A DNA stretch of 64,000 nucleotides. Origin: Cliona cf. orientalis. Its lineage: Eukaryota > Porifera > Demospongiae > Clionaida > Clionaidae. The translations under genes were made by a program, and so were the position numbers. Below the pieces are notes generated by a model. The model made no database searches. It worked only from the letters and a program-made list of their open reading frames with translations, and was not told where the DNA came from. Shown one piece after another: positions 1-64,000 of the stretch (within the stretch, counting starts at the first letter, position 1; every line of letters begins with the position of its first letter). Location of the stretch: assembly GCA_963930775.1 (NCBI GenBank), contig OZ005689.1:6673569-6737568 (forward strand), given 5' to 3'.

Positions 1-1
1 T

Positions 2-94
2 AAGCCGGACATACATCTGGAAGAGTGTCCGGCTTATGTTGGAAAAGACGATATCAAACTGGAAGATTGTCCAGCATATGGACACATACAATGA
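2..94 (+). CDS. Terminal (cytoplasmic tail) exon of a truncated upstream receptor gene
   Basis: The window opens inside an open frame ending at TGA (92-94). It encodes a short acidic tail with two tyrosine motifs, LEECPAY and LEDCPAY, separated by a KDD spacer and followed by GHIQ. This closely matches the tails of genes E (53552-53727) and F (58492-58676), so it is the last exon of a receptor whose remaining exons lie to the left of the window. The acceptor and reading phase of this exon cannot be seen. By analogy the tail would lie in the cytosol and offer tyrosines for phosphorylation; that function is inferred. Confidence 0.7.
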   Translation, partial: KPDIHLEECPAYVGKDDIKLEDCPAYGHIQ

Positions 95-159
95 TATTTC
101 TGTAGTATGATATAATGTAGGCTTATTATAGCCTCGTCATCTCAAGGTGGCATAGCTAG

Positions 160-345
160 GATTATCAGTTTGGTGGGGCAGAGAGTATCAGGTGGGCAGT
201 TCCTCCTAGGGAGGTCTGGGGGCATCCCCCCCCCCCCCCCCCCCCCCCCCCCAGAATATTTTTTTGGAGCTCTGAGACACATTCTGGAGGCTCCTGAAGC
301 CTTAATTTCACCACAACAAAATTAATTATCATCAAGTTGCTAACA
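160..345. repeat. Dispersed repeat with a poly-C run; second copy at 26540-26700
   Basis: The stretch carries blocks such as GTATCAGGTGGGCAG, GGTCTGGGGGCAT, CTCTGAGACAC and TCTGGAGGCTCCTGA that recur in the same order at about 26558-26670. A C run at about 226-252 lies inside it; run length is unreliable in any assembly. No gene is visible. Confidence 0.55.
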
Positions 346-501
346 GTCTTTCACCACAAAGTAAACAATTATATATAGCACTTTACTTGTTGCAGTATTA
401 TAATATAAATATGCGACAATAACCCTATGTCTCCGAGGCCTTGATCACAGCACTATATATCTTGCTCACATGCATGATATCATTCTATACTCCTAATTAG
501 G

Positions 502-1073: not shown

Positions 1074-1104
<31 letters not shown>

Positions 1105-2968: not shown

Positions 2969-3047
2969 ATGGGCATCACTGCATGTGGTTACATTATCCG
3001 CGAACTTGACCTCATCCCCAGTAGCTGCATAGTTCCATAGATAAAAA

Positions 3048-5303: not shown

Positions 5304-8000
5304 ATGAGGATGGATAAGGTAACAGTGCTCTTCCTTCAGTTCCTGGTTTTAATATGGCTAGGACTGGTCTGCCGCTTTTCAAATGCACAGTCAATGTCAT
5401 GTCCACTCATCACTATCGATGATCTTGGAAGCACTACCGAGTTTTCCACCCAGGGACTCGTTGCCCGGGGCATAGCCCCTACAGGAGAGGTTGCAGTCAG
5501 CGTCCCTGTGAGAATTAGGAACTTCACAAAAGTGTGTGATGCAGCAGGAGATCGAATAAACACATCCTCTTTTGTTTCTGTGGTAGTTGAATTTCAGTGT
5601 GATTTTCAGAGTTCCAACCTCAGATTGGCTGTTTGCAATGATTCCAATAACATAGTCACCAGGCAGTACCAGTTTCAGTGTTTTGAACAAAATGGGCAAC
5701 CTGTTTGGAGTACTATTGTATCTGGCAGTAATTTGTTTGTCCAGACTCTGAACCCAACAGCTAATCTCTTGACACCACTTGCTGACCAGTGCAGGCGATG
5801 TATTGATGATCAGCAGTCTAGTAGAGCTGACCCCACCACTCACTGCGACCGTGAGTCTGTCTAGCATTGATTAGCTATAGCTACACACTTTCGTAAAAAT
5901 CATGTATTCATATTATAATAATATTATTATAGCATGTCCATCACGATGTGATCAGGGACAGGGACGTTGCTATCTTGGGTCAGGAGCTGATGTGTGCTGT
6001 AGCTTTTATCTTCAAAATAACTGTACAGATCTGGAGGAATGTCCTAGTGCTTTGGTCAGTGATTCAAACTCTGTCTGTGGTGAGTAAATTTCACGGTTAT
6101 AATACTTACAAATCTCTCTTAATAATAATTATTATGCTCACACGTGTGTACACATGCACACATATGCATGCACACATGCTTATACATGCATGTTATTATT
6201 ATTCATACGCATACATACACACATATACATCAACAGTGTGTCCTTCTCTGAGTGTTGCTAATGGTGATGTGAGCTATTCACCAGCGAACAGGGACATTGG
6301 AAGTGTGGCCACCTATACCTGTAATCCTGGCTACCATCTGACATCGCCACAGGCTGGAATGACACGAATGTGCAGTGTGAATGGCTGGAGCGATCAAAAT
6401 TTCACTTGTGGTATTATGTCTTTGTAGCTACTTATTCTGGAAATTCAATAATAATTAGATATTTCATAGTCAAGTCTATTACGATGACCATGTGCAGGCA
6501 TTGCTCTGTTGGGACTGGCCCCCCTTCCTTGCTGGTTGGGGGGGGGAGGGGCACATGCCCCTGGTGCCCCCCCCCTCCCCCCGGTTCCGGTCCCATGCCT
6601 ATGTCTATCTATACTACTTATCTTTTCACGTATTATTATAATACAGTTGTTCAGTGTCCAGATCTCGGTGACAGCATAGCAAATGGTGAAGTGGTCGTCA
6701 CTCCTCCTGCACGTACGGTTAATTCAATAGCTGAATACTCCTGTAATGGTGGCTATAAGCTGGACAAGGGAGATGCCAAACGTACCTGCCAAGCTGAGGG
6801 TACTTGGAGTGGTGAAGCTCCTCGATGCAGTGAGTAGTATTATCATAATTATATTTAATTTATCATTATGTATTAGGTATCATAGTGGGTTTATTGTCTG
6901 CTGTGTGCTGTTGCATATCATTGGTGGCAATATTAATATTACTATAATTATTGTATACCTGATTAGTAAGTTTAACCAACTCCCAAGGCTTGTATATATG
7001 CAGTACATGTATATATATATGAGCACAAATTCTGAGGCTGCATACAAAGCAAGGGTTATAATTGGGTTGTCACTTGATAATTATTCTCTATAACGAATTG
7101 TTTCTACATGCATGGATATAATCTCAGAAACTGTATAATTATTTTTTATTATTGTGGTCCAGGACATGAACCGTTTACACGGAGGGACTCTATCACTAAA
7201 TTTTGTATACAAATAATAATTATACCAATCACATACCGTATAGCGGGAAATTTTCGTTGGTGCTAATTTTCGTATGATTGACCAATGCGCCCTTAGAATA
7301 AATTTTTGTATTTTTTAATTTCATATGTTTGCACTGGAAGATTGGGCGCATGCGCAGCTCGCAACGCTAGCTAGGCCCACGCCCGATAGCTTGACAATGG
7401 CATCTTGTCGATTGAAGCGATGGTGAGAGGCTACCATGAGTCTACAAGAGTATTTGGACTGCTGCCGTTGGCGAAGAATTCGAAGTCTTGGCGAAGAACC
7501 AATACCGAGACATTGTTAGCACCTGCAGCTGCGCTAGCGACTGCGTGTGGTGTAGGTCAAAGGTCACGTTCGCTAGAAAAAATTTCGTAGGTTTAAATTT
7601 TCGTACTTTTTATTTTCGTATAAGGGATGGAGCATACAAAATATACGAAAATTAGCACCATACGAAATTTCCCGCTATACGGTAGCAATGAGCTAGAATT
7701 TATGGAGTATTTACTTATAATAATATTGTTAGTAGGTGGTGACTGTATACGACTTCTATTCAAAATACATGTCATAATATTATTATAGAATAATAATAAT
7801 TATTATTATTCATATATATACAGTTGTCCAGTGTCCTGATCTTGGCACAGAAAATGGTAAAGTGCTCATCACTCCAACTGCACGTACGGTTAACTCAACA
7901 GCTGAATACTCCTGTAATGATGGCTATAAGCTGGACAAGGGAGATGCCAAACGTACCTGCCAAGCTGAGGGTACTTGGAGTGGTGAAGCTCCTCAATGCA
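5304..8000 (+). CDS. Sushi receptor gene A, ectodomain exons 1-5 (gene split by a transposon)
   Basis: Exons are 5304-5850, 5933-6079, 6237-6410, 6647-6829 and 7824-about 7998, all joined in phase 1. Exon 1 encodes a signal peptide (hydrophobic FLQFLVLIWLGL, likely cut after NAQ) and an unrecognised domain with eight cysteines. Exon 2 is a cysteine-rich EGF-like module (CPSRCDQGQGRC...VCCSFYL). Exons 3-5 are sushi/CCP modules with the usual C...C...C...W...C pattern. A second in-frame ATG at 5310 matches the start used in genes B-D. Exon 5 should end TGCA|GTGAGT, but the 7999-16075 transposon sits two bases before that donor. The intact donor now lies at 16080, and the transmembrane and tail exons are at 20170-20603. 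Without the insertion the protein would be about 489 residues. The allele probably makes truncated or read-through products; a weak in-phase donor at 8013 inside the element is possible. Confidence 0.85.
7234..7684. mobile_element. TACCGTA-family MITE (451 bp) in intron 4 of gene A
   Basis: The ends TACCGTATAGCGGGAAATTT and AAATTTCCCGCTATACGGTA are perfect inverses. A second internal inverted block (GGTGCTAATTTTCGTA near 7259 and its inverse near 7650) extends the hairpin. The interior differs completely from the 4383-4593 copy. The 61-residue open frame inside has no support as a gene. Confidence 0.85.
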
Positions 8001-8012
8001 CAGAAAAAAATG

Positions 8013-12691: not shown

Positions 12692-12963
12692 CTCTTTATG
12701 AATTTCACTATTCTGTACGATCGATTGATTGGGTAGCTAAGTGAAAATCAACTCGAGTCTGCAGCTGGAGACGACCCTGCGCGGCGATCGCGATCGTGCT
12801 ATGGTGCAAATAATCGCGTTTGTGGGCGGAGTCGACTGCATTGGGGACCGGGATTCGGCACATGGCATGCACGTTCTTAGTCACGTGCCAAATTTGGCGG
12901 GCAAACTAGCATGCACGTGTTCGTTAATTTTTGAAGAACTAGAACCAGCGATCGAGTCAAAAA
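12692..12963. promoter_or_regulatory. Shared intergenic promoter region between the two transposon genes
   Basis: The 272 bp between the two divergent start codons are richer in CpG (GCGCGGCGATCGCGATCGTG near 12780) than the surrounding sequence and contain CACGTG-type words near 12890 and 12916. Position and composition suggest a bidirectional promoter; no transcription start can be placed. Confidence 0.5.
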
Positions 12964-19940: not shown

Positions 19941-20169
19941 CTATCGAATTTTTTAAAGTGTTGATAGATCGCATTTGCGTTAGATCGCATTTGCGTCGTA
20001 ACAAGGGTCGTCATATTAATATGCCACGCCACAATACTACGCTACAGTGGCTATAGAGTGCGCGGGGTATGTGCTCTATAGAGCTCTAATTATTATGTGT
20101 ACTAACGCGTGCACACACACACTCATAATAATAATATAATTATTATTATGCATACACACACACCTTTAG

Positions 20170-44600: not shown

Positions 44601-47437
44601 TTGAAAATATGAAAAATGAAATTTTTGGCTCAAACTACCCCTAGCTAGACTATTTCTGTCAAAAAATATGATACATAGAAAGTGCACGCACTTTAAACTC
44701 TTTGTTGCTTCTAAAGAACTCAAGGCTCATCTTGCACTTTAAGAATAGATTCCACTTCATTAATATGTGCATATGTACATGTACATGTGTGAACATGTGT
44801 GTGTACCACTATGAGAGCTTATGTATGTGTTTGAGGGGGCATCTTAACTAGTAATTTCAAAAAATTATGCATGAAGTCAGCTTCTGGAATTCTGAGGCAG
44901 TGAAGTGTTAGCTACAATAGCAGCCAAACAGGTATGCACACCAAATTTTTATATTCACTAATGCATGTTAAATTCATTAGTTGAATAAGAAGAGAGGTAC
45001 TTACATGCTATATTTCAAGTTTGAAGTCAATCAGTAGTGTAATTTTTGAGTTATAGGCCTCTAAAGCAATCAACATGTTACGTGCCATTCCCCTATTGGA
45101 ATAGTACACACACGACTAGCAGAAAAATTGTGATGTTTAGAAATATTAAAACAGCCATATCTCCACAACCACTCAATGAATTTTTACGGAACAAAGACCA
45201 AATTGTATCTTGAAGCCTCCTTTATTATTATATGTGGTAAAGAAAGTGTAAAGAATAATCTAAAATTTTGATGTAATATGCCTACTTCTATCATTCATAC
45301 AGTTGTCCAGTGTCCTGATCTCGGTGATAGCATAGAAGATGGTAAAGTGCTTGTCACCCCTACTGCACGTACAATTAACTCAACAGCTGAATACTTCTGT
45401 GATGATGGCTATAAGCTGGACAATGGAGATGCCAAACGTACCTGCCAAGATGGGGGTACTTGGAGTGGTGAAGCTCCTCGATGCTGTGAGTAGTGTTGTT
45501 GTGTGAGTATACCTAGCTGTAGCTGCACGCTATTATATTATATAATATTATAGTCGTTATGTTGCAGTGGTGTAAGAAGATGTTTTTTAACAGGGGGACT
45601 GTAAATACTAAATTGCATGCAAAGTGCGCAACACAGGATACACCTTCAAACCATACTAGGCCTGGGCCAAATATTCTTTTAAATTTGCCCATTATTCAAA
45701 TAATTATTCTTCACTTAGGCCAATCAAACTACATTGTTAGTTTCTCGTCCACCCGTTTTTATATTTCTATGCGGGCGGGCGGTCATTATTCATTATTCAT
45801 TGTTCAATATTATGGCATTTTTAGGGTGTGGTTTCCTGGAACCGCCCAAATAATTAGCAAAAAAGAGGTGTGGCTGGCGTTTCAAGGCAATAATGAAGGC
45901 AGAAGCGGTAGGTTGAAACAGACGCGGGCGGTGACGAGAAACTAACAATCAAGTTTGTGTGGCCTTATCTCCCCCATTATTCAAGAAAAAGTTACCTATT
46001 ATTCTTAAAAAGCTGACAAAATGTTAATGAAACATGAATATGACCAGAATGTACATACATGTACATTCAAGTTGGCCAACAAGTGCTAGTCTAAGATTAC
46101 ATGCAAAATTTCTCTTTATTGTAGCTATATTCTGAGGCTAAAGGAACTTTTAGCACTCCCAAAAATGATCGATGCATGACTGATTTGTTTGCTCAAGTGT
46201 TTCCTCCATTTGACCACAGACTCATGTCACATGATACGAAATTTTCTATTTTAAGCACACGTTGTGTATGCACACTACTTCCTTGAGCAGTTGAACAGCC
46301 CATTATTCAACTTCTTCAAGAAGCTGCCTATTATTAAAAAAATTATTCACGAATATTTGGCAGGCATAAACCATAGTATTACCCATTATTATGCTAATTT
46401 GGCTGTAAAGTAGACTTTACATCACAAATCTGAAGATGTCAAGGCCTAGTAGAATAAATATCTTCCTAGGTTTAGGCCCACTTGGCTGACAAGATGGGGG
46501 GGGGGGGGGGGGGGGGGGGGCTATAGCCCCCCAGCCCCCCTGCTTCTTACGCCAGTGTGTTGAATACCAGCAGCTACTCTCTGTGATTTAATTTTAATTT
46601 CTAGACTATAGGCATCACATAATAATTATTATTGGGATCTGGATTCTATATAATTTTAATGAAACAATTATCACATCCCTAGTAGCTTCATTGTATGTGG
46701 TAAAGGGTCACTACGTATGTAAGTGGCATACTTCTTGAGTTATGCAACGTTACGTAATCATCAAATTCTTTGAAGTGGAATAACTTGAAAATGAAACAGA
46801 TGATAAACTCTAAAATATTTATTTCACGATTCGATACCGTTACTACTTCAGAAAAGTAAATTGCTACTCCTGATACCGAACAAACATTAATTTTGTATAC
46901 ATACACATGCAGTGAGCCATGCATACATGCGTGCATGGGAGTCATGGTATGAGTTCTGCATGCACTCAAGTACAATTTCATTATTGTGTGCATGTACTAA
47001 CACACACACACACCTTTAGTTACTTTGGATAACCGGTCTAACATTCCTGCTATTATTGGAGGAGTTGTTGGTGGCTTAGTGGTGCTAGGAATCATAAGTC
47101 TGATTTTTGGCACTATTGTAGTGGCCATAAAGTTAAGGAAAAGAGGTACCTCTCTTATAATAATATAATAATCATAGCAAAGTGATTACATGGTACAATT
47201 TTAATAATTATGGTATTAATGGCGGGAATTTCGAATTCAACCGGAGAGGCATTCACCAATAATATTCACATTATTATTATTATTATTATTGTATATACAG
47301 GTGGTCAAATGAAGCTCGATGCTCTAAGACTTCATAAAGAGCCAGATGATGTACATGTTGAACAATACAAATCAAAGAAAGATAAGGACATACATCTGGA
47401 AGAGTGTCTGGCTTATGCTGAGAAAGACGATAATTAG
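41695..47437 (+). CDS. Sushi receptor gene C (three sushi modules) with a frameshift in exon 1
   Basis: Exons are 41695-42242, 42293-42439, 42517-42690, 42962-43144, 45303-45485, 47020-47145 and 47301-47437. The order is signal peptide, eight-cysteine domain, EGF-like module, three sushi domains, transmembrane helix and tail, about 498 codons. Exon 1 is one base longer than the family pattern: near 41900 the paralogs read GTGAGAATTAGG, while here an A run gives GTAAAAAATTAGG and an immediate stop. The frame reopens and the rest is clean, so this is either a very recent pseudogene, an allele, or a base-calling error in the A run. The tail is the best-kept of the sushi genes, with LEECLAYAEKDD and a tyrosine in EQYKSKKD. 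After the stop, CTGGGAGAATGTCTAGCATG is a remnant of the second motif. Confidence 0.8.
43145..45302. other. Long intron 4 of gene C
   Basis: The first part (43145-44160) resembles intron 4 of gene A (blocks ATCATTGGTGGCAATATT and GGTCCAGGACATGAACC). From about 44165 to 45285 an unrelated AT-rich stretch is inserted relative to gene A and B introns. I see no terminal repeats or gene in it. Confidence 0.4.
45565..46557. mobile_element. CAGTGG-ended element (0.99 kb) with TGTTG target duplication
   Basis: The left end CAGTGGTGTAAGAAG and right end CTTCTTACGCCAGTG are near-inverses. TGTTG flanks both sides (45560-45564, 46558-46562), and TGTTG lies in the uninterrupted paralogous introns at the same place (GTGTGTTGAATACCAGCAG near 31930). 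It contains a nested MITE-like piece (about 45715-45965, ends related to 2390-2968) and a G run near 46497-46520. No transposase is visible. Confidence 0.8.
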
Positions 47438-47996: not shown

Positions 47997-50056
47997 ATGG
48001 ATAAAATAAGACTTGTGCTCTTCCTTCAGTCCCTACTGTTGATGTGGCTAGGACTGGACTACCACCTTGTGAATGCACAGTCAATGTCATGTCCACTCAT
48101 CACTATCGATGACCTTGGAAGTACTACTGAGTTTTCCACCCAGGGACTCGTTGCCCAGGTCATTATCCCTGCTGGAGAGGCTGCAGCCAGCGTCCCTGTG
48201 AGAATTACGAACTTCACAAGAGTGTGTGATGCAGCAGGAGATCAAATAAACACAGCCTCCTTTGTTTCTGTGGTAGTTGAATTACAGTGCAATTCTCAGA
48301 GTGCCGAACCCAGTTTGACCGTTTGCAATGATCCCAACACCATAGTCACCAGGCAGTACCAGTTTCAGTGTATTGAACAAAATGAGCAACCTGTTTGGGG
48401 TACTATTGTATCTGGCAGTAATTTGTTTATCCAGACACTGAATCCAACTGCTACACTCTCAACACCACTTGCTGACCAGTGCAGGCGATGTATTGATGAT
48501 CAACAGTCTAGTAGAGCTGACCCCACCACTCACTGCGACCGTGAGTCTAGTATTGATTAGCTATAGCTACACATTTTTCGTAAAAATCATGACATTGTGT
48601 TCTATTGTAATGTAGCATGTCCATTGCAATGTGATCAGGGACAGGGACGTTGCTATCTCGGGTCAGGAGCTGATGTGTGCTGTAGCTTTTATCTTCAAAA
48701 TAACTGTACTGGTCTAGAGGAATGTCCTAGTCCTTTGGTGAATGATTCAAACTCTGTCTGTGGTGAGTAAATTTCACGATTATGGTTTTTTACACACATG
48801 CATACAATGTCATGAACACACGTACATTCATACACATACACATATCATCTGTGGTGTGTCTTGAAACCATACACACTCATATACATACATACATGCACAC
48901 ACACACTCACACAGTGTGTCCTTCCCTAAGTCTTGCTAATGGTGATGTGAGCTACTCACCAGCAAACAGGGACATTGGAAGTGTGGCCACCTATACCTGT
49001 AATCCTGGCTACCAGCTGACATCCCCACAGGCTGGAATGATACGAACATGCAGTGTAAATGGCTGGAGCGATCAAAATTTCACTTGTGAACGAAGTGAGT
49101 ATTATAATAATATTATTATCCTATAGTATTGGCCATGCTTAATAATTAGCTCAGTGCTATATTATTGCAAGTAACTGGTTATATCGTCATCATTATTGTT
49201 GTCATTAGCACAAAAATCGTCATATCTCGAAATCTAGGCACCCGAGCACCTTGTGAGCACAATGGATCAATAGAATTTGGCAAAAACTGGCTTCAGTGTG
49301 CTTTAAATTGAGGAATATGCTCCAAGAATGTAATAAATAGTGCCTTTTTGTTGGCTATCATAGCTATGCCTATTGATAGACTAAGTGCCGGCTAATACAT
49401 GTACATGCAGCCCATAATATGCTTTCTACTCATGCATACAACTGAATGGCCTAATGAAGATCATCTGGATGTTCTAAATAATGCTTGTGACATAACATTA
49501 TACTGTTCATACAACTAAGCAGCGTTTTCACTATTTAATAAATGTGTTGCCACTCATACAAAAGTAGACTACAGATAGCACAATGTATGCTCAGGGTATA
49601 TTCTCTAGTACAGATCGCTAGAGCTCTACTGTTGTGTTTATCATTTTGAGATTCGTGAATCATAGTGGGCGAGGTCAATAATATTATTCATGGTAGCCAT
49701 GGCCACCCACATGATACATAATAATATTTAATTGTTTATGATTAATCACCTATGTTGTGAGCTAGGTCTTTAAATTTATTCACATTTCACATATAATATC
49801 CATACAGTTGTCCAGTGTCCTGATCTTGGTGATAGCATAGAAAATGGTAAAGTGTTCATCATTCCAGGACCTGCTGCAAGTAGGATCAATTCAATAGCTG
49901 AATACTCCTGTAATGGTGGCTATAAGCTGGACAATGGAGATGCCAAACGTACCTGCCAAGCTGAGGGTACTTGGAGTGGTGAAGCTCCTCAATGCAGTGA
50001 GTAGTATTGTTAACCCTCAACATAATTATTATGTGCGAGGGTTACAGTAGTCGTTC

Positions 50057-50089
<33 letters not shown>

Positions 50090-50647
50090 CTATCTGTTAC
50101 CAAGCTAACTGGTTTATGTATTGCAAACAAGGAGCCATTAGTCTTCTTATGGCATTTTCAGCGTATGCATTATGTGGATTTCGTTGAAAACGCTTTTAAA
50201 TTTTTGTTACCTTCTTCGCTTCTTGGTACACACAATGTCATACAATTATAATTATATTATACACACATGCACACACATCTTTAGTTCCCAGGTATAATAT
50301 TCCTGCTATAGTTGGCGGAGTTGTTGGTGGTTTCGTGGTATTGTGTCTGCTGATTGCTGGCATTACGATAATAATAATAGTGGCCAAGAAGAAACAAGGT
50401 ACATTGTAAGCCTACAAACACTCTCCCAGCTTATTACGTGACTACATGTGGTGTAAAATAATAATAATATTATTGTCAGTGCTGCATGAACTGGTTATGG
50501 TGTAGCTTTATGTACACGTATTGGTCAATTACATTTCTCCTATTAATAGGATCTGATGTTAAAGTGAAGCCCGAAGGTGTACATGCTAATGACGAGGCAG
50601 GGAGTATTCAAATGAAGGAGGACCATAAGGAGTGGACAACAGTCTAA
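47997..50647 (+). CDS. Sushi receptor gene D (two sushi modules, divergent tail, 423 aa)
   Basis: Exons are 47997-48540, 48616-48762, 48915-49094, 49808-49996, 50285-50398 and 50550-50647, all phase 1 and open to TAA. Residues 1-27 are the signal peptide, to 181 the eight-cysteine domain, 182-230 EGF-like, then two sushi domains, a transmembrane helix (AIVGGVVGGFVVLCLLIAG) with KKKQ, and a 32-residue tail. Exon 3 ends CER as in gene G, not C as in A-C. The sushi exon 4 has two extra codons (PGPAASRINS). The tail contains no tyrosine at all; remnants of the motif follow the stop (GACATTAAGCTGGAAGAGGA, then CCCAGCATAA). Gene D therefore looks like a short receptor without the tyrosine signal, possibly a decoy or dominant-negative form (inference). 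Confidence 0.87.
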
Positions 50648-50914: not shown

Positions 50915-53727
50915 ATGAATCACAAGATTGTATCGTCGATCCTTGGCCTCCTAATACCTATACCTTTAACGTTACTTTTAATAGAGAGTAAGTATAAATT
51001 TGGACTTAGTAGATTTCTATCGATCGCGAATTAAAGGAAGCGTAGCTATAGCGATTAGCTAGCTGTATTATCATAATAATATGGCATAAATTCATTATTA
51101 TTAGAGCATAGTTGTATGATGTGGTATATATATCATAACTTCTTTCAGGCTGCTTAGGAGCAGTGGACTTCATTGATCCTCCAAGCGGCTCAGTGGTTGC
51201 CAACTTCGAAGGGTCTCTCAACGCTACCACTCTGACATGTAATGTCAGCCATGAGGGATCCCAGCGTTTTACCTTTTGGAGCATAGCAAACTTCCGTGGT
51301 GTTGCCGGTAGATAATCTCTTGGTACACTAAGGGATCAAAATCTCCCCTTGCATCCGGTACTAGAACTGGATTCATTTTTCAACCAAGTGATAGTTACTA
51401 ATTGGACCACAGAGTTGGATGGAGTGATCATATTTTGTGGGATAGGTTCACAACCTGCTCAAGCAAACGTAACACTCAGACTCTATCGTAAGTTAGTCAG
51501 AAGATTAAGCTTGGCAAGATGATTAATTTTATTTTAGTCATGTAGCTATTAAATTTTATTTTTAGGATCCTTCAATTTAAAAGATAATGTTTCCCTGAAA
51601 ATTCGAGAGGGAGATTTGAATGTTCCCGTTGATCTTCTCCTGGAGCCAACACCTTTTCCTCTACCTTCCAAGCTTGAATGGCTTAAGGATGGTCGGCCAT
51701 TGAGGCAGAGTGACCTAATCACCACTACCTACTCTAGTGTGACATTTGCTTCTGTTACACGAACTGATGCTGGAAATTACACAGTGAATGCAACAAATTT
51801 TTTGCTTGATAGTGTCACTCAACCAGTGGGAAGTGACACGGAGAGCTTCTACTTAGACGTTCTATGTAAGCTGATCATGATTGTTATCTAAGTCTACACT
51901 GCATGTGATATCAGGTAGCTATTGGATTATCATGCATGAAAATCTGCCATCTCATCTTTCGTTAGATGCTCCTTCATTTGTGTCGCAAGGTCCAACCAAG
52001 CAATTTATACGACTGGGTAACAATGCTTCCCTTGTTTGTGGCACTGGTCTGGACAGCAATCCTCAAGCCACCATCACCTGGACAGCGCCTGATGGAACTA
52101 CAATAGTGGACAATATCAATGCTAGATATGACAAGGAGAATGGTCCTACTTTCGTAAGATTGAACTTTACAAATGCCACCAAAAGCGATAGTGGAGTTTG
52201 GAGGTGCGAGGCAGTTGTAATGTCCAAACGGCACATTTTCAGTGGAGGGCAGTTCATTCTTCAGAAGAGAAGTTTAATTGGCTCAATTATTCAAGATATT
52301 CAATTAACTGTGATTGGTGAGTTACATTAATTTGCATGATAGCTTATTGTATTATGCATAGCAAGGATGATATGATCTGTTAAAAATTTCATCAGCTCCC
52401 CCTGGTCAGCCACACACACAATTGGTCAAAGAGAGTGAAGCTACATTATTTCAAGTTTGCTGGGAAGCGCCAGTCCAGTCTGATTCCCATATCTCATACT
52501 ATTCAATCAGAGTACGCAATCTCAACAGCAGTGCTGAGAATAGTAAAAATTAATAATATTTAACACCATCACAAATGACTGGTCTCCTTCCTGGTACTAC
52601 CTATGAGCTGACTGTGGTGGCAGTGTCTCAGGGAGGGGATGTTGTTGCCAGAAGCCAACCTAGTGATCCCACAGTAGATACAACTGCAGTTGCAGGTCAG
52701 TTAGTTTAATTAATTAATTTTCCCTATTTGAATTCATTATTAATAATCCATGCATATAATAGTTCCTGAACTTTCCTGCAATGCTTCAATATGGGCTAAT
52801 GGTACAGTCACAGTTTCCTGGTCTTTCGTTCACACTGGAGGGCTTCCTCTGACCAATGTGTCTGTTTCCTACACAAAATTTAATGACAATAATTTAAGTC
52901 ACATTCCCATTCCACTCATCAGTGTTGATACAACATCTGTCACTATTCCTGATCTGAAAGCAGGATTTGAATACACCTTTAATGTGATCGCTGTAAACAG
53001 TGAAGGATCATCAAGTACAGTGTGTGGTCTCACTATACCTGAATCAGGTTATCATAATTTAATTGTCTAACTTAATATAATTATGTTATGCTTTTGTCAC
53101 TTATACACAACAGGGTAACTAGCTATTATTATTGTACCCAGACATGCAGACATACACAAATTAATTTGTAATAAACTTCATGCCAGGTAGTAGCTATACA
53201 CACACACACACGCACTCTTGGATAATTGGTCCCATGGCTGATAGTTTGCCTATGAAAACTTTGAGCGACTGCATAAATAAACACGTATACTGGATGTGTA
53301 CACAATGTCATCCATATGCATGCACACACTGTGACAAATATCTATACTGTGTCACACACATACAAACCATATTTTATAGTTCCCTTGGACAAGCGGTCTA
53401 ATATCGTTGCTATAGTTGGAGGATTTTTCGGTGGCTTGGTGGTATTAGGATTTGTGCTTTCATTCAGCATTCAAGCGGCTATGGCCCTCATTTTCAGTAA
53501 ACAAGGTGTGTTAGCAGAACTATTAGTTAAACTAATGATTAATGTATTAAGGTAATCAAAAAAAGCTTGAAGCAGTTTATGAAGAGCCAAATAACCTCCA
53601 ACGGTACACACCACAGACAGAAACTGATATAAAACTGGAACTTCAAGAGTGTCCTGCTTATGTTGAGAGAAGAAAAGATGATAATATCGAGCTGGAAGAG
53701 TGCCCAGCATATGGACACATCTATTGA
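50915..53727 (+). pseudogene. Ig/FN3 receptor gene E with in-frame stops
   Basis: Exons are 50915-50987, 51149-51487, 51566-51865, 51966-52316, 52396-52695, 52763-53047, 53380-53505 and 53552-53727, all phase 1 with normal junctions. Exon 1 is a signal peptide. Exon 2 is an Ig-like domain (TLTC...FW...IFCG). Exon 3 is Ig-like without cysteines (LEWLKDG...DAGNYTV). Exon 4 is a classical Ig domain (SLVCG...ITW...DSGVWRCEA). Exons 5-6 are FN3 domains (TYELTVVAVS; EYTFNVIAVNSEGSS). A transmembrane exon and a tail with LQECPAY and LEECPAY follow. TAA codons interrupt exon 2 (51313-51315) and exon 5 (52551-52556), while every exon keeps length and phase. I read it as a young pseudogene. Skipping exons 2 and 5, both symmetric, would give an open transcript, so an expressed shorter form cannot be excluded. 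Confidence 0.75.
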
Positions 53728-54168: not shown

Positions 54169-55205
54169 ATGAAATTCGTGTCTTTAATCCTGTCAGGTTT
54201 GGTCGTCGCCCACTCGTTTCGAGGTAAATCAGTTATAGCTAACTGTATGGACTGGCCACGGGCATTGAGACCTATAGTGTATACCTCAGCATAATTAATT
54301 CTAATCATAGATAACTATTTTGGGTTTATTATTGCATTCTAATCAATGTTACTGTAGGTTACAATGGAGCAGCTAACTTTATTAGTCCTGCTCCAAGTGG
54401 GTCGATGATAGCTAATTTTGAAGGAGCTGTCAATGCTACAACTTTGATTTGTAATGCTACTCGTGGAGAAAACCAGATTGATACATTTTGGAGAATTGCA
54501 AATTTTCGTGGTGTTGCTGGAAGTCGAGCACTTATTAATTAATCTAATATCAAGTCAGAACATTTTTATTGCTCATGGATTATATCTGAACGAACTAAGA
54601 GTCACTAATTGGACATCTGAAGTTGATCGAGTGATAGTGTTTTGTGGCACTGGTGGAGATCCCACACAAACAAATGTAACACTGAGAATTTATCGTAGAG
54701 ATATAATTCACTTTTAGCTATCTTATATTATATTAATTGTAGGACCGCCTATTTTGCGAGATAATTTTTCAGTGAAACTTCTAGAAGGTGACTTAAATGT
54801 TCTCATTGACCTTAACCAGGAGCCAGCAGCTTTTCCAGAACCCTCCGACTTTGAGTGGCTTATAGGTGGCCAGGCATTAATAAGGCGGAATGGTATCGTC
54901 ACTTCATACTCAAGTATAATATTAATTTTGGTTCTCTTATGAGATCAGATTCTGGAAATTACACAGTGAACGCAACGAACTATTTGCTTGATAATGTCAC
55001 TCAGCCTGTGGGAAATGACATAGGGAGCTTCTACTTGGATGTTTTATGTAAGTTATAGTAGTCATCAATAGCTAATATGTTTAATCCCTGGAGGAGAGCC
55101 AGGAAACAATCATACTAAGCCAGTTGGTGTGAGGATAATTTTTTGACCATATTATTATAATATTATACATACACTCTCCGTAACTCTTCCGTGAATCCAT
55201 ATAGC

Positions 55206-55396
55206 TACCGTAGATCTGGAAATTTTCGTGTAAAGAAACTTTCGTATGATAAATTTTCGTGTAAAAAAATTTTCGTAGGAACGACCCCTTACCGCATTAG
55301 CGATAATAGTGCATGCTAATTTTCGTAAGATTAATTTTCGTAGCCGCCATCGACTACGAAAATATTTTTACAACGAAAATTTCCAGATTTACGGTA
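55206..55396. mobile_element. TACCGTA-family MITE (191 bp) in intron 3 of gene F
   Basis: The ends TACCGTAGATCTGGAAATTT and AAATTTCCAGATTTACGGTA are near inverses, with inner TTTTCGTA words on both sides. Confidence 0.8.
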
Positions 55397-55513
55397 GTTC
55401 ATAGTACAGTAATGGGTTTTGCATCATATTAAAGCTCACACTTTACAACTGAAACTAGAGCTATAGATGTCATGATTGATAAACAAGGAGAGGTGACTCT
55501 AAGGGGTGCACGT

Positions 55514-55538
55514 GGGGGGGGGGGGGGGGGGGGGGGGG
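55514..55538. repeat. Poly-G run
   Basis: About 25 consecutive G lie in intron 3 of gene F. The window has several such G or C runs inside repeats (226, 1078, 3940, 38863, 39749, 46497); exact lengths are doubtful. Confidence 0.8.
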
Positions 55539-56009
55539 TGCATAACTATACCTGCACCCTCATCCTTACACCATATTGTGCATGACTTTCACGAGCTCTA
55601 TGCTGCTTAAATCCTGCTATTGTTTTATAGACCCACCTTCGTTTATGACACGAGGTCCTACCAGGCAATTTGTATAGGAATGGGTAACAGTGTTTCCCTT
55701 GTCTGTGGCACTGATCTGGACCATGGCAATCCTCAAGCCACCATCACCTGGATAGACCCTAATGGAATAAGAGTTATTGACAGTGCTAGATTTACCCTGG
55801 AAAATGGACCCTCTTTCGTAAGATTGAATTTCACCAATGCCACCATAGCCGACAATGGAGTGTGGAGGTGTGCTGTTGTGGCTTTATCCAAACGGCACAT
55901 TCTGAATGATGGACAGTTTATTCTTCAGGATGAAGCAGTAATTGGCTCAATTACTCAAGATATTCAACTAACTGTAATAAGTAAGTATGATACTCAATGT
56001 TATATAATA

Positions 56010-56380
56010 TAACAAGTATAAAAAACAATAAAATTGAAGGATGAAGTAGGGATGGCAGGATCAAAAAGTACACAAACAAGATTTATAAGGCATAAGCATC
56101 TGCTATACATCCCTTCACTTGCTTTTCTCGATTATTATGCACCTATTAATGTTGATGTATTTGTCGAGTGCGGCATGTGAGAGACATTCAGGGTTGTTCT
56201 CTGGTTGTCACGATGGTTCAGGATAGTCAGTCAGTTGCATTATTTTGCACCCCTCAAAAAGCAAGTGTAGGGATGTATAGCAGATGCTTATGCCTTATAA
56301 ATCTTGTTTGTGTACTTTTTGATCCTGCCATCCCTACTTCATCCTTCAATTTTATTGTTTTTTATACTTGTTTTTGTTCT
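56010..56380. mobile_element. Foldback MITE, CCATCCCTACTTCATCC family (copy 3), intron 4 of gene F
   Basis: AACAAGTATAAAAAACAATA...GGATGAAGTAGGGATGGCAG and CTGCCATCCCTACTTCATCC...ATTGTTTTTTATACTTGTTT are inverted. The inner block GGCATAAGCATCTGCTATAC is also inverted. The loop is about 56130-56250. Confidence 0.85.
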
Positions 56381-56839
56381 TTTTTTATTGCTCTTAGCAT
56401 AATAATAGTAATATTATTTATCAATGCCATCTTATATGGCTTGCTCATTCAACTCTCTTACGGTGTAATTAAGTGGCTAGTAGATAGGAGGTACCGAAGT
56501 TCGCGCGTGCATGCACGCAAAGTCTTAGCCACGCCCTTCAAGGTGGCTGACAAAGAAGGCTGCCCAGGTAGCGGTGTGTCTCAGAGTCTTCAAGTTGTGA
56601 ACTGGCTCAGTGTTATGCTGACTGCTGCCAGGAGCCAGAGTCTTGATAGCTACCTAGTTCACTGTATAGCGCTCAGCTCGCACTGGCCTAGTTAACTAAG
56701 CTATAGTTAGCTCGCGCGGGAGAGCCTGGCGCCTAGTTCGAGGCTAGAAATGAGCGCCGCGAGTGTGAGCGATCGACAGTTACATTAACATTGTACGCGG
56801 CAATGCTGCATTGCGCGCGCCGCGCCCCTGACCATAGTC

Positions 56840-57300
56840 ACATGATTTCACCATGGCAACACATTCCGAGCATGCGCATTGTATGACAAAAATGGCGTAT
56901 CAGACACACCCATTAGTTAATGCACCGTACACACCCACCATTACTGTCGAGATATCGCCAAACAAACGTGCCATGGACCTGCGCGCTACAAAATGGAGTG
57001 GATTTATACGAAAATTAAGGAGAGCGGTCCAGACAGTCTTGAGTTAGCCCTGATAATGAAAAAGAAAGAAGAAAGAAAGAATGAGAAATGGGCTATTTTT
57101 CAAACATCTGGCTCTGGCATGTACAATTGTTTTGATGAATGATCTTGGTCTTGCTAGATGCACAATTTGCTGGAGATTCTGATTTTCACACTTAGAAACT
57201 TCATAAAATCACATATTTTGAGATATTTGGGTATTTGTAATGTATTACATATATGGCATATCCGGGCCATCCCTACTTATAGAGTCTACCGACTCTATGA
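56840..57300 (-). repeat. Inverted second copy of the 27645-28135 repeat
   Basis: The reverse complement matches the order of blocks at 27645-28135, including AGAGTCTACCGACTCTAT near 57280 and a GAAAGAAAGAA microsatellite near 57065. It lies in intron 4 of gene F. Confidence 0.65.
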
Positions 57301-58676
57301 TATGTTGTGAAACTTATAAATTTAACCATGACAGCTCCTCCTGGTCAGCCACACACACTCTCAGTCAAAGAGAGTGAGGCTACATTATTTCAAGTGTGCT
57401 GGGAAGCTCCAGTCCAGCCTGATTCCCATATCTCATACTACCTGCTCGGAGCGTGTAATCTCAACAGCAGTTTTGAAAGCAATAAAACAGTGTTTAGCAC
57501 AATCACTAATGCAACGTCTTCGAATGTGACTGGTCTCCTTCCTGGCACCACCTATGAGCTGACTGTGGTGGCAGTGTCTCAGGGAGGGGATGTTATTGCC
57601 AGAAGCCAGCCTAGTGATCCCATAGTTGACACAACTAGTGTAGCAGGTCTGTAATTTAATTAATTTTCCTTATAATTGAATTCATTATTGATATTTCCCA
57701 GCTCCTGAACTTTTCTGCAATGCTTCAGTATTGGCTAATGGTGCAGTCACAGTTACCTGGTTCTACATCCACACTGGAGGGCTGACTCTGACAAATGTGT
57801 CTGTTTCATACTGCTTTGGGAATAATAATATTCCCATTCCCATTCCACTCATCAGTGTTGATACAACATCAGTCACTATTCCTGATCTGAAAGCAGGATT
57901 TGAATACACCTTTAATGTGACCTCTGTAAACAGTGAAGGATCATCAAGCACAGTGTGTGGTCTCACTACTCCTGAATCAGGTAATCTAATTGTAATGTGG
58001 TCCCTTTACTCTCAAATTAGCATGCATATCATTAATTTTTTGGTGCACATAGGAGATGCTGTATAACTAACTGTTTGTCCATAGCATAGTTCCCTTTCAT
58101 TATCAGGCTATATGCCCTACAGTATGATCATCTAAATTCATTGATAGTTTGCCTATGAAAACTTCGGTTGCTAAGCGACTGCATGAATAAACGCGTAACT
58201 ATGTATATTATACACAATGTCATGCACACATGGCATCCACACACTGTGACAAACATCCACACTGTGGCACACACATACACACCCTACTGACGTACATTCT
58301 TTTAGTTCCCGTCGACAACACGTCTACCATTGCTGCTATTGTTGGAGGAGTTGTTGGCGGTTTGATGGTATTAGGAATCGTAGTTTTAGTGAGTCTGGTT
58401 TTCGGCATTACAGTGGCCGCAAAGTTAAGGAAACAAGGTAAGTAGCTACTCGATTATAGCATAATGATAATTTTATTGAACATTGCCACAGGTAATCAAA
58501 TGAAGCTTGAAGCAGTTTATGAGGATCCCGATAATCTCCAACAACACACACCAAAGAAAGATAAAGATATTATAGAATTGGAGGAGTGTCCGGCTTATGT
58601 TGAGAATAGAAAAGATGACATCAAACTGGAAGAGTGTCCAGCATATGGACACTTACATAACAGTGTGCTTAAATAA

Positions 58677-59555: not shown

Positions 59556-59592
59556 GCCAGACAATTCTGAAACTTGCCACCAACGGATAAGG

Positions 59593-61771
59593 ATGGGTAA
59601 AAATTTAATAAGAGTACTCTTACTTCAGTCCCTGCTTTTGATATGGCTGGGACTGGACTACCATCTTGCGAATGCACAGTCGGCGTCATGTCCACTCGTC
59701 ACTATCGATGATCTTGGAAGTAATACCGAGTTTTCCACCCAGGGACTCGTTGCTCAAGGCATATCCCCTACAGGAGAGTCTGCAGCCAGCATCCCTGTGA
59801 GAATTAGGAACTTTACAAGAGTGTGTGATGCAGTAGGAAATCAAATAAACACATCCTCCTTTGTTTCTGTAGTAGTTGAATTTCAGTGTGACTTTCAGAG
59901 TGCCATTTCCAGTTTGGCTGTTTGCAGTAATCCCAACAACATAGTCACCAGGCAGTACCAGTTTCAGTGTACTGAACAAAACAGGCAACCTACTTGGGGT
60001 GTTATTGTATCTGGCAGTAATTTGTTTGTCCAGACTCTGAATCCAACTGCTACGTTCTCAACACCACTTGCTGACCAGTGCAGGCGATGTATTGATGATC
60101 AGCAGTCCAGTAGAGCTGACCCCACCACTCACTGCGACCGTGAGTCATTAGCTATAGCTACTACAATCTAGTTTTCTTATCAATAAGGGGGGTAATCATA
60201 TGTACCTACAGCATGTCTACCACAATGTAATCAGGGACTGGGGCGTTGCTATCTCGGACTTGAAGGAGATATGTGCTGTAGTTTTTACCTTCAAAATAAC
60301 TGTATAAACGAGTGTCCTAGTGCTTTGGTGAATGATTTCAACTTCATCTGTGGTGAGTTTTTAATAATCATGAAACTACTTATAGCTACAAATCTCTCTT
60401 ATGCACTCACATGCACACACATAATATTATATACACACACACTCACACAGTGTGTCCTTCCCTAAGTCTTTCTAATGGTGATGTGAGCTACTCGCCAGCA
60501 AACAGGGACATTGGAAGTGTGGCCACCTATACCTGTAATCCTGGCTACCGGCTGACATCACCACAGGCTGGAATGACAAGAACATGCAGTGTAAATGGCT
60601 GGAGCGATCAAAATTTCACTTGTGAACGATGTGAGTATATATATTAACCTATAACAAAAACTTGTGTTAGAATCGGAGCCAATACTGTCTGGAGTGCACG
60701 TGGCCAAGCACCAACCTGTCAATGTAAGAATGTATGCACGCAGAAAAAAAACAAAAACAAATAAAGCCTGACTTGTGCATCAGTGGAGTTATCTCACCTT
60801 CTACATACCTATCTCCATGACCTTTTTAAATATTATAATAATATCAAAGTCTCATGCTATTGTTGCTACCACACCCTCTTTCCCACTCATTCACACTCGC
60901 AGTGATTCTGTGTCCCCAACTGTCCATCGTCAATGGGATGATCATCATGACTTCGAACACTGTCGGCTCCTTGGCCTTCTACCAGTGCAATGCTGGCTTC
61001 GAACTGAGCGGACTCAGCATCAGGGAGTGTACAGCTGAAGGTGACGAGGGCCAGTGGTCTGGAGAAGAACCCACCTGCATTGGTTAGCTCAACTTGAATA
61101 ATGGTTAGCTATACTCTAAGCAGGATGAGCTACCCAATTTGACTTTGGCCCAATTGCAAAGAATTCGAAGCTTTGCATTTAATAATGAACAACATCACCT
61201 CCCAGTTTAAGATTTCTTTTATCTCGGATAAATTTCTAAATATACTTATCATTCACTTTGGTCGCAATTGTTGTGACAGTCCTGCTATATTTAGCTATTG
61301 TGTTATATTTATTTATGTTCACACCACAGCTGTAGATATTGTTGCCTGTCCTCTACTTGACTCTCCATCTGATGGAAGCATTACCGTATCCACAACCACT
61401 CCCGGTTCGACTGTTAGCTACACTTGTGAACTTGGCTATATACTTGATGGACTTGATACAAGAACGTGCTTGGATAATGGAACATGGACAGGCTTTGATC
61501 CTCTGTGCAATCGTATGTAGTCTCGCAATCATTGGTTAATAAGTTTTTTAGTGTGAATTTCCTTATTATTTTGACTGCAGCTGTCGACTGTGGGATGTTG
61601 GTTGCCCCCGATAATGGTCGTATAACAATGGAGCCGGGACCAACCAGCACAACACTGAACAGCATAGCCTTTTACTTCTGCAACGTGGGATTCAACATCG
61701 TGGGTCCACCAATTAGAGTTTGTCAGCAGAATGGATCCTGGAGTGTCTCATACTCCCATTGTTTAGTCTAA
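59593..61771 (+). CDS. Sushi gene G, predicted secreted form with four sushi modules (473 aa)
   Basis: Exons are 59593-60139, 60212-60352, 60451-60630, 60903-61082, 61330-61512 and 61581-61771. The frame is open and phase 1 throughout. An upstream in-frame ATG (59554) falls in what is 5' leader in the paralogs, so I chose 59593. Exons 1-3 match the family (signal peptide, eight-cysteine domain, EGF-like, first sushi). Exons 4-6 are three sushi modules unlike the VQCPDLGDS type of genes A-D and unlike each other (CPQLSIVNGM; CPLLDSPSDGS; CGMLVAPDNGR). The last runs into TAA two codons after its final cysteine, with no membrane segment. The product would be secreted. A family-type sushi exon at 63693 lies downstream in a compatible phase, so exon 3 could alternatively splice to it and give a membrane form (inference). 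Confidence 0.82.
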
Positions 61772-63692
61772 CTGTTTGCCTGAACATGTGTGGTAGTCCC
61801 CAGTAGAAGCCAAAGTATGCTATGGAATAAAATAAATAGAAGTATATTATTATAATTATTATTACTAGAATAATACTATAGTACACACCCCCACTGCTAG
61901 ACTAAGTGCTCAGTACCAATAGCTAGCTCTTATGTTTGCTGTAGCTATGAATATTCTCCCATACCTTCATCAATACTCCGTGCCATGATTAAACAGCGCA
62001 TTTTTAATTTCATGCTTTTTAATACACCTAAGATACACATTGTACATAATACACAAGACTTAGTATGTTTGATATCACAATCATGGGATAATGTGACTGA
62101 ACACTACTAACAGCATGCTATTATACAATCGAGTGCCAGTTAGTACGTCGAATCTACCACCAGACCATGACAAAGAGCAGATATCGCCTCTCGTTTCGCT
62201 CGAGGCTCGGTGGCCTGCCAAGCAGGCCTGTCAAAATGCGCGGCACTTGCGCCACTCGCTTGAGCTCGAGAATGCATCTCTATGGCCCCTAGGCTCTGGC
62301 AACCTTGTTTGTGCACACGGCACAACAATTCTGACCAATCGTGAGTCTTCTGAACTTGTAGGAGAGCATGTCTTCTTTGCCCTCCAGGTTAGGACATGGA
62401 CTATATAAGAAAAGTGTCGCTCTGAAATACATTTTTCGTTGTAGCTATATAGTATAATAATTATAGCATCATCCATGCTTGCGAATTAAGTATTTCTATC
62501 AGTGCATAAATAATCATGATGGGCGAGATCAGTTATTATTCATTATTTACCGTTTGCCACCCATACATTGACTAATATTAGCCTTTTGGCCTCACCTAGC
62601 TAACTAGAGCTCTCTTGAGCACAAAACCCTCGGCGCATTACATGGCATTAGCTAAATGTTTCAACATGCAATTGTATGCAGAAAAGGAGGTAGCTAAAGG
62701 GCTGGGGCTGGGGCGAGACAGGGATGAGGTTAATGTTATACTTGCAGAGCAGTGTTATTCAAGGTGCAATGGCTCATAGTAGCAACAACCATAGTGTGTT
62801 TTATCGAACTGCACACTGTGGTGTCGAGATCATTTTCAACATCCCTCACTGTTACAGTAGCCTAACCTCCAATTCTTGGGGACTTAGCTAGCTACATCTT
62901 AACTTGAAGGACTGTGATGCAAAGCCTTGGCACAAGACTGAAGTACACTGAGCCATATTGCATGTCCAATATTATCGCAATTAACTCACTTGGGTTGAAG
63001 CACTGTAAAGCCATGCTTGCATACAAGTCAGAGAGTTAAAGGGTACCATAAGAATACAGGCAGCTTTTCGTGGGATGACAGTGGCTTCTTTTCAACTCTA
63101 AGGCTTAGCTTCTAAGCCATAGAAGCTAAGCCTTAGAGTTGAAAAGAAGCACGGTCATTCCGCGATCGTCAAAAGCTCACCAGTAGACTGAGCGGCGGGA
63201 TTGATGCAACTGTGCATGTGCTGAGGGTTAATAGACGCATATATACCGTATATAGCGCGCAACCTATAACTTAAAGTCATGCCATCGCTAGCTCGGGCAA
63301 AGTCAAGAACTTAAAATCGGCAAATGATGCCAAACCTGGCGAACAAAGTGTTTTTGGAGAATTCCACACAAATCAATGACATGCGTTTGGAACGCCATAA
63401 GGAACCTTAATATTATAACACCACAAATTGGACTCGCAAACGAGGTATGTAGCAGCTAGCATGGTTACAGAGAGACCTCAGGGCTTCGCTCGGGATTCTA
63501 CATAGAGCCCTTCAGTCTTCTAAATCACGTAGAAACCTCCTAAACAGTGTCTATCTATATTATATTATAATTTGTGAGCATTATAGCCTCGTCCTCAGGC
63601 TACGAGAACGTGAGAGTGACCCGGGGACAAGGCTAGGTTCCGAGTATTAATTTATCTTTTACACTTTAACGCACACACACACAATATTATAG
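61772..63692. other. Gene-free stretch downstream of gene G with a family intron marker
   Basis: No exon is supported. GGGCGAGATCAGTTATTATTC at 62519 matches the GTGGGCGAGGTCAAT block that precedes family sushi exons in genes B, C and D, so this stretch behaves as receptor-gene intron. It contains a strong hairpin at 63084-63150. The 97-residue frame at 62115-62408 has no recognisable domain. Confidence 0.45.
63084..63150. repeat. Perfect 31-bp inverted repeat with a 5-nt loop
   Basis: The arms 63084-63114 and 63120-63150 are exact inverses (GCTTCTTTTCAACTCTAAGG... and ...CCTTAGAGTTGAAAAGAAGC). Weaker pairing extends outward to about 63055-63177. It could be a small foldback element or a hairpin RNA; nothing distinguishes them by eye. 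Confidence 0.8.
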
Positions 63693-63887
63693 CTGTCCAG
63701 CTGCAGTGTCCTGATCTTGGTGATGGCATAGAAAATGGCAAAATAGTCGTCACCCCTACTGGCAGTGCACGTACGGTTAACTCAACAGCTGAATACTCCT
63801 GTAATGATGGCTATAGGCTGGACAAGGGAGATGTCAAACGTATCTGCCAAGCTGAGGGTACTTGGAGTGGTGAAGCTCCTCAATGCA
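63693..63887 (+). CDS. Sushi exon of the receptor family (gene G alternative exon or a further gene)
   Basis: The acceptor is AG at 63691-63692 and the donor GTGAGT at 63888. The exon is 195 nt, phase 1 at both ends, and encodes a sushi module of the CPDLGDGIENG type with C...YSCNDGY...C...GTWSGEAPQC. It has extra codons (VQLQ, TGSA) relative to the usual 183-nt exon. The next exon lies beyond the window. Exon 3 of gene G (ending 60630) is phase-compatible, so it may be part of gene G. Confidence 0.75.
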
Positions 63888-64000
63888 GTGAGTACAAATT
63901 GCTTTGCATACCTGTATTGTACGAAGTATATCTACTATATACCTGATGAGTGAGTGTTGTTGATTATAATAATATTATGTAGTATTATAATATTATTATA

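Follow-up and report, generated by a model that had tools for sequence, protein, structure and literature searches.

A same-strand array of putative receptor genes with three ectodomain classes and a shared membrane-tail module in the sponge Cliona cf. orientalis

Introduction

In the fester/FcoR system of Botryllus schlosseri, a cluster of polygenic receptors containing Ig and sushi domains is described; FcoR tails bear tyrosine motifs and uncle fester has its 3' half in common with fester and an unrelated 5' half (cited part of PMC12065747). The Alr genes of Hydractinia are described as a cluster of single-pass transmembrane (TM) genes of the immunoglobulin superfamily (IgSF) with many pseudogenes (excerpt of PMC11067881), and both immunoreceptor tyrosine-based inhibitory motifs (ITIM) and hemi-immunoreceptor tyrosine-based activation motifs (hemITAM) are reported for Alr tails (PMC12065747, same part). 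According to that text, no conservation is seen among the proteins proposed for allorecognition in sponges, cnidarians, and ascidians, and the cited portion of a grafting study in Amphimedon reports that enrichment for adhesion mediated by the aggregation factor was not significant (PMC5450542). In this study, a stretch of 64,000 nucleotides from the sponge Cliona cf. orientalis (contig OZ005689.1, hereafter C1; C1:6673569-6737568), referred to as the window, was analyzed together with its surroundings as an array of putative receptor genes in which different ectodomains are predicted to be joined to one TM and tail module. Such a compact array, in which ectodomains are modular, the tail has a recognizable phosphotyrosine site, and kinase receptors of related type exist, would provide named sponge loci for testing receptor ideas.

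Scope of the analysis

The window was searched within the 216.8 Mb assembly, which represents one haplotype. Primary k-mer completeness of this genome is given as 60.5% and combined completeness as 99.62% (cited part of PMC12639293), a difference that suggests high heterozygosity. The exon-profile scan covered 264 kb without N, made up of the window plus flanks of 20 kb on its upstream and 180 kb on its downstream side (up to C1:6917568). Gene models were predicted from exon profiles, splice signals, and exon order in the genomic DNA. Most exon profiles were made from window copies and their E-values on those same copies are therefore circular, while the single-copy genome searches were each made from one exon and are non-circular.

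Organization of the array

The exon profiles placed seven receptor genes, A to G, in the window, all on one strand as a first-pass annotation of the DNA had proposed, and the plus strand, on which they lie, held 169/169 profile matches at E<=0.01 across the 264 kb. Genes A, B, C, D, and G (class I) consist of an N-terminal exon with eight cysteines (N-terminal domain, NTD), a further 8-Cys module, and sushi exons; genes E and F (class II) consist of Ig and FN3 exons. TM and tail exons are homologous between the two classes. Their presence in genes A through F, also claimed earlier, was borne out by the TM and tail profiles and by a non-circular search with the gene B TM exon alone, which recovered gene A at 3.9e-13 and gene C at 2.0e-12. 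The gene B NTD exon, searched in the same manner, recovered D at 3.7e-90, G at 3.3e-89, and A at 1.3e-88. The TM exon query yielded 28 matches at E<=1, of which 19 had E<=2.2e-4 and were all located at C1:6.673-6.953 Mb on the plus strand; on these matches the predicted shared TM module is confined to a single locus, an array approximately 0.28 Mb long. The tail query yielded 54 matches at E<=1, mostly at C1:6.38-7.16 Mb on both strands, with a few further matches at C1:5.2-5.3 Mb and on contigs C2, C7, C14, and C15.

The array goes on past the window, where genes I, J, K, L, M, N, O, P, Q, and R were read and gene T is located at C1:6919420. Complete domain series were present in L, N, and Q according to the exon profiles. 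Genes M, N, and Q define a class III, comprised of its own N-terminal domain, Ig, FN3, and a membrane-proximal Ig followed by the same TM and tail. The predicted anatomy, three ectodomain classes on a common TM exon and tail exon, is well supported by these comparisons. The proposal that exchangeable ectodomains sit on a shared membrane-tail module holds in a stronger form than originally claimed, given the third class and, as detailed below, two apparent chimeras, the TM-exon tree, and related fronts on receptor tyrosine kinases (RTKs). A minus-strand block with class II Ig exons and related tails (C1:6962908-7007199) adjoins the plus-strand array.

We lean, if only slightly, towards reading the locus as an array of single-pass, kinase-less receptors with an Nck-recruiting tail that would serve surface recognition of sponge cells or microbes. 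The parts of this reading differ in strength: a signaling route via phosphorylation of the predicted tail has moderate likelihood, whereas recognition as the role is guessed from likeness to the systems described above, and from the same likeness we infer that the function may be innate-immune or allorecognition.

Among the exons submitted to Pfam, cut-offs were passed by two Ig and one FN3 of gene E and by one FN3 of gene F. The NTD had no Pfam family at E<=10 in 5/5 copies, and is thus a domain without a match in the Pfam copy searched; the N-terminal domain of class III was likewise blank in Pfam at E<=0.1. Neither the NTD nor the 8-Cys module returned anything below E 0.05 in PDB profile searches, and AlphaFold models of the NTD from five window copies had a mean predicted local distance difference test score (pLDDT) of 47.5, which is unusable for assigning a fold. 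Against Pfam, an EGF family was matched by only one of seven copies of the 8-Cys module (five from the window), at E 0.54. The earlier division into five class I and two Ig/FN3 ectodomains accordingly stands, with NTD, 8-Cys module, and sushi on one side and Ig and FN3 on the other; the "EGF-like" label given to the former does not. The NTD and 8-Cys module occur together, since all 39/39 loci of the module have an NTD <=1.5 kb upstream. The sponge aggregation factor family is characterized by Calx-beta/VWA-type repeats, and none of these were among the Pfam matches of the subset of exons scanned. Beyond C1, a dense sushi array was observed at C18:706200-733411.

Possible exon exchange between classes

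Two genes downstream of the window look like hybrids of class I and class III, with Ig and sushi combined with TM as judged by exon order alone. Gene O (C1:6859734-6866136) carries the class III N-terminal domain, Ig1, and Ig2, followed by two class I sushi exons, TM, and tail. Gene P (C1:6867643-6874365) carries a class I NTD, 8-Cys module, and sushi, followed by a class III Ig3, TM, and a tail in which nine CPAY-type units were counted. At the DNA level, the 5' part of gene P was closest to G (84.8% over 1431 nt, compared with 79-80% for A, B, C, D, and L) and its 3' part was closest to N (86.1% over 1427 nt) and M (85.0% over 1257 nt). Similarly, the 5' part of gene O was closest to N and Q (approximately 85%), and its sushi part matched class I genes. 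The exchange of ends described for uncle fester in Botryllus is of the same kind as this apparent ectodomain swap (cited part of PMC12065747).

Splice phase may be permissive for such exchange. The best donor was in one phase for 86 of 119 domain exons, 9 had other phases, and 24 had none scoring >=5, while in a control of 551 open reading frames (ORFs) the donors were distributed 92/72/83 over the three phases and 304 lacked a donor. With mostly one splice phase, exon gain, loss, or swap would therefore keep the reading frame. The exception was the class III FN2 exon, whose best donor was in a different phase in 3/3 copies. Homology between class I and class III begins approximately 140-200 nt upstream of the TM exon. 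In a TM-exon tree of 18 rows, with O labeled class I and P labeled class III according to their membrane-proximal domains, a single class I clade was rejected by the approximately unbiased (AU) test (p=0.017). Taken as a mechanism, receptor diversity would be maintained by unequal exchange and exon shuffling.

Clustered Sp185/333 genes of the sea urchin are flanked by dinucleotide repeats proposed as drivers of exchange (excerpt of PMC5103432). The Cliona proteins are unrelated to these; a (CA)n tract of >=5 units was found <=100 bp upstream of 9/17 TM exons, 6/28 sushi exons, and 2/3 class III FN1 exons. Overall, upstream tracts were present at 17/119 exons compared with 1.2% of random windows, and downstream tracts at 6/119. 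The enrichment at TM exons is not independent evidence because these exons are paralogous. With downstream tracts also present, a role of (CA)n tracts as exchange sites was kept only as an idea.

The cytoplasmic tail and Nck

Eighteen tails were read, including that of g0, a gene that ends at the start of the window. An uninterrupted Y-[DE]-x-P site was present in 11/18 (g0, E, F, I, the fragment K, L, M, N, O, P, and Q) and was missing from the tails of A, B, C, D, G, and J, all of class I; in gene R the corresponding YDYP is located behind an in-frame stop. Gene L is the only class I gene to keep the site, besides chimera P with its class III-type tail. The resulting contrast, 1/7 class I compared with 10/11 others, gave a one-sided Fisher p of 0.0025 (calculated by hand), a value that is descriptive only because the genes are related. 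A CPAY unit of 15 residues is present in two to nine copies in intact tails. The gene M tail contains two CPAY units before the stop and four more approximately 0.9 kb further, and the CPAY stretch of gene P repeats a 45-nt unit 8.8 times in tandem. A scan for strict ITIM found none in the 15 readable rows (the R row ended after two residues; D, G, and K were outside the scan, and hemITAM was not scanned as such). Y-x-x-[ILV] was observed in the tails of g0, E, F, and I (C-terminal), A (YEEL), and P (YGQV).

The consensus for the Nck SH2 domain is given as pY-D/E-x-V/P in the cited part of PMC8187788, and the predicted tail site matches it. A potential partner was detected in the same genome. 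With an Nck query sequence, an SH2 exon at C18:1306381 was second of 14 matches (47%), and its four best PDB sequences were NCK2/NCK1 (3.7e-14 to 4.1e-13), with the next at 6.6e-8. Binding of the ectodomain to a contact partner or ligand would cluster the receptors, the tail would be phosphorylated by a kinase of Src type or by RTKs with related ectodomains, and the phosphorylated Y-[DE]-x-P would recruit Nck and lead to actin reorganization, as for nephrin. The ectodomain of nephrin contains FN3, and nephrin is not known to have a clustered multigene array, sushi/8-Cys classes, or tandem CPAY-type repeats. The likeness to nephrin-type receptors consists of an Ig/FN3 ectodomain together with an Nck-consensus tail tyrosine, which in nephrin is pY1193 (PLpYDEVQMGP; excerpt of PMC8187788).

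The tails also bear on a very improbable alternative, namely that the genes encode secreted or membrane complement-like opsonin or scavenger proteins and not signaling receptors. Sushi repeats of class I are reminiscent of complement regulators, and the in-window class I copies are without Y-[DE]-x-P, both as expected under this explanation. However, a TM exon accompanies every window gene (A-F inside the window, G just outside) and class II and class III tails retain their motifs, with the exception of R.

Related ectodomains on receptor tyrosine kinases

The NTD query yielded 56 matches that were merged into 46 loci, of which 20 were located at C1:3.97-4.17 Mb, 9 at C1:6.68-6.92 Mb, 12 at C12:1.71-1.92 Mb, and 5 elsewhere. 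At C1:4150265-4160140, an NTD and 8-Cys module are followed by a TM that differs from that of the array and by a tyrosine kinase domain (PF07714 E 6.4e-13; GEFGIV, AIKTLK, HRDLA). The same TM-kinase pair follows two further NTD loci (TM 4044098 and kinase 4046224; TM 4068611 and kinase 4070740). At C1:7.4134-7.4162 Mb on the minus strand, class II Ig2 and Ig exons are followed by a related TM and kinase (HRDLA, DFGL, KWLPPE), and the kinase pieces of the C1:7.41 and C1:4.15 RTKs are 92% identical over 71 residues. Owing to these two RTKs, front parts of classes I and II are found on two chassis, which suggests that ectodomains were exchanged between two signaling chassis inside one genome.

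A class III counterpart was sought in 9 kb from C1:7643300, where class III exons were present with no kinase match. One class I copy on C12 had two sushi matches and another TM, with no kinase match in the 7 kb read. Sponge RTKs are a natural point of comparison, as almost 200 "cytokine receptors" with mainly tyrosine kinase, Ig, and FN3 domains are reported for Halichondria (cited part of PMC8242945). The Cliona RTKs share the Ig or class I fronts, whereas the 264 kb around the window had no kinase match at E<1.

If kinase-less and kinase-bearing copies act together, class I copies without the tail site could be non-signaling or competing partners of the RTKs that bear the same front. A more elaborate version, which we regard as a long shot, is a split receptor system in which ectodomains are shuffled between a kinase-less chassis, whose tyrosine tail varies in length, and the RTK chassis; contact between cells whose ectodomains match or mismatch would then be read out through kinase-to-tail phosphorylation and Nck-driven actin responses. 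If true, this would supply the receptors of sponge self/non-self recognition that have long been sought.

Two side observations concern other parts of C1. A same-strand array of tyrosine-kinase exons at C1:7662796-7872969 lies close in sequence to the class I receptor kinases, and neither the class I NTD query nor the class II Ig query had a match there. The Ig exons of the class II RTK are preceded by three short Cys-rich exons (C1:7417513-7416651, minus strand) that resemble somatomedin-B as judged by eye.

Comparison with described systems

The nearest working analogues of the array appear to be Botryllus fester/FcoR and Hydractinia Alr. Clustering and the occurrence of Ig and sushi domains within the cluster are common to the Botryllus genes and Cliona; unlike Botryllus, Cliona has three ectodomain classes on one tail, related fronts on RTKs, and no strict ITIM in the 15 tail rows, and its genes have one TM exon each compared with the three TM of fester. 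As in Alr, clustering and decay were evident by exon profile in Cliona. IgSF domains were identified for class II and class III exons, whereas the class I NTD and 8-Cys module had no Ig match and ITIM was not found. Membership in either system is not claimed because ITIM (both systems), IgSF in class I, and the triple TM of fester were not found. Among the papers listed from the open PMC library, none described a comparable sponge array as judged by title or the start of the abstract, which does not prove absence.

Selection, decay, and weighing of the favored interpretation

Median ratios of non-synonymous to synonymous change (dN/dS) were 0.48 for the NTD (6 copies), 0.34 for the 8-Cys module, 0.29 for the first sushi, 0.59 for other sushi, and 0.65 for TM. 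Class III domains had medians of 0.27-0.63 (3-4 copies each), and class II Ig and FN3 had 0.34 and 0.50 (3 copies each). Among class II Ig2 pairs, none gave a usable synonymous distance. Pairs above 1 were 0/15 for the NTD, 0/20 for the 8-Cys module, and 0/21 for the first sushi, compared with 9/134 usable pairs for other sushi and 20/134 for TM, the latter being short exons. The medians, 0.27-0.65, suggest constrained coding sequence. The excess of non-synonymous change that had been suggested as a check on the ectodomains was not seen, as domain-average dN/dS was below 1.

These averages are also consistent with a less likely but serious contender, in which the genes are ordinary tandem-duplicated adhesion or matrix receptors, serving development, tissue cohesion, or symbiont housing without a self/non-self role, and ectodomain variety arose through drift as crossing-over was unequal. 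This genome has several further clusters with sushi domains, and a sponge transcriptome is reported to contain sushi-bearing SRCRs and many Ig, FN3, and tyrosine kinase receptors (excerpt of PMC8242945). Simple tandem duplication is nevertheless exceeded by unrelated ectodomains on one tail, a same-strand array, apparent chimeras, and site loss biased toward class I.

Gene decay, proposed at first pass, is indeed present, with a stop or frameshift near position 41905 of the window in the gene C NTD and a frameshift near 54930 in Ig2 of gene F. Tails are degenerate in A, B, C, and D and interrupted in G and R, and fragmentary genes are found at C1:6746291-6750811, 6783871-6789862, and 6914411-6915192. 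All of these would be expected if the array were mostly a collection of decaying copies with few working genes, the shared TM and tail exon having been left over when a single progenitor was duplicated. Such a reading is improbable given that the majority of domain exons keep an open frame and a donor in the common phase, that dN/dS medians are below 1, and that L, N, and Q have full domain series.

Several observations weigh against the favored interpretation of recombining, Nck-recruiting recognition receptors. Between the halves of gene P is a piece resembling the 5' flank of class III, so that the front of a class I gene may have come to lie ahead of a truncated class III gene; O and P could be decayed neighboring fragments and not spliced genes. 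Acceptors of matching phase were found for most domain exons by a test that was lax and without a control. The TM tree is weak, as 1/15 inner branches was well supported and a single class II clade was not rejected (p=0.126). On the tail side, Nck docking is a sequence match and not a binding result. For the RTKs, the TM-kinase pair was found after at least 3/46 NTD loci, counts that rest on candidate lists and are lower bounds, and the NTD matches at two of the three TM-kinase loci (4030000 and 4054830) contain an in-frame stop. The RTK copies match only the fronts of the classes, with no sushi, Ig, or FN3 match between the 8-Cys module and TM in the 10 kb at C1:4150265 and no FN3 at C1:7.41 Mb. 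Finally, diversifying selection was not seen on domain averages.

Gene models and other features of the window

Positions in this section are those of the window, and gene features are on the plus strand. The window begins within a gene: positions 1..94, first annotated as a tail remnant, were reassigned to the 3' end of g0, an Ig-Ig-FN3-FN3-TM-tail gene whose first profile match is at C1:6670891, upstream of the window, and whose tail consists of YEEP and two CPAY units. Gene A exon 1 (5304..5850) encodes a signal peptide (by eye) and the NTD recovered with the gene B exon at 1.3e-88, which has no Pfam match. It is followed by the 8-Cys module (5932..6081, by exon profile, with the EGF label unsupported by Pfam), three sushi exons by profile (6236-6409, 6652-6828, and 7829-7999), and, at 20163..20603, the TM exon (20163-20291) and a degenerate tail without Y-[DE]-x-P or CPAY. 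By profile, gene B has its NTD at 22475-23011 and 8-Cys module at 23075-23215 (22475..23215), six sushi exons beginning at 23310, 23777, 24727, 25549, 26199, and 31686 (23310..31865), and a TM exon with degenerate tail (32725..33076).

The gene C NTD and 8-Cys module are at 41695..42441, the NTD being broken near 41905; three sushi exons (42516, 42967, and 45308; 42516..45484) and a TM exon with degenerate tail (47022..47437) follow by profile. Gene D has an NTD and 8-Cys module (47997..48764) and two sushi exons (48914 and 49813; 48914..49995), all by profile. A recognizable TM exon (50281-50400, profile E 4.6e-8) and a degraded tail (approximately 50549-50647, by eye) of gene D occupy 50281..50647. 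One gene had been predicted as secreted at first pass, but none of the genes is clearly secreted.

Among class II genes, gene E contains Ig at 51565-51864 and 51968-52315, a partial FN3 at 52395-52550, and FN3 at 52762-53046 (51565..53046; Pfam Ig_3 and fn3), with the TM exon and tail at 53382..53727 by profile (YEEP, two CPAY units, and C-terminal YGHI). Gene F (54339..57979) has an Ig-like first exon (by eye), Ig at 54742-55046, frameshifted near 54930, and at 55629-55979, and FN3 at 57334 and 57701, the first of these two identified as fn3 by Pfam. Its TM exon and tail are at 58308..58676 by profile (YEDP, two CPAY units, and C-terminal YGHL). Gene G has its NTD and 8-Cys module at 59593..60354 by profile and five in-window sushi exons (60450, 60908, 61344, 61586, and 63704; 60450..63886), the exon at 61344 matching Pfam Sushi. 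Past the window, gene G continues with two further sushi exons, a TM exon at C1:6739213, and interrupted tail pieces. The earlier statement that gene G had no membrane exon in view is correct inside the window, with the exon found just outside. Similarly, sushi number varies as stated, though the upper bound of six gives way to a range of two to seven because gene G holds seven sushi exons counting the two past the window.

Neither tRNA nor Rfam families at the gathering threshold were found in the window. Long ORFs on the minus strand at 9875-12736 resemble mobile-element protein, and the first 256 aa of the ORF at 11588-12736 (minus) had nothing above the Pfam cut-off. A unit of approximately 430 bp is present in many copies at 33179-41224 (direct-repeat families D2, D4, D7, D12, and D13), two of which are 100% identical over 300 nt. 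Long inverted repeats with 96-100% complementarity were found at 38310-40307, 16694-17833, 29158-29545, 29685-30641, and 56011-56372; they resemble foldback or miniature inverted-repeat transposable element (MITE)-like elements, and one is located inside gene F.

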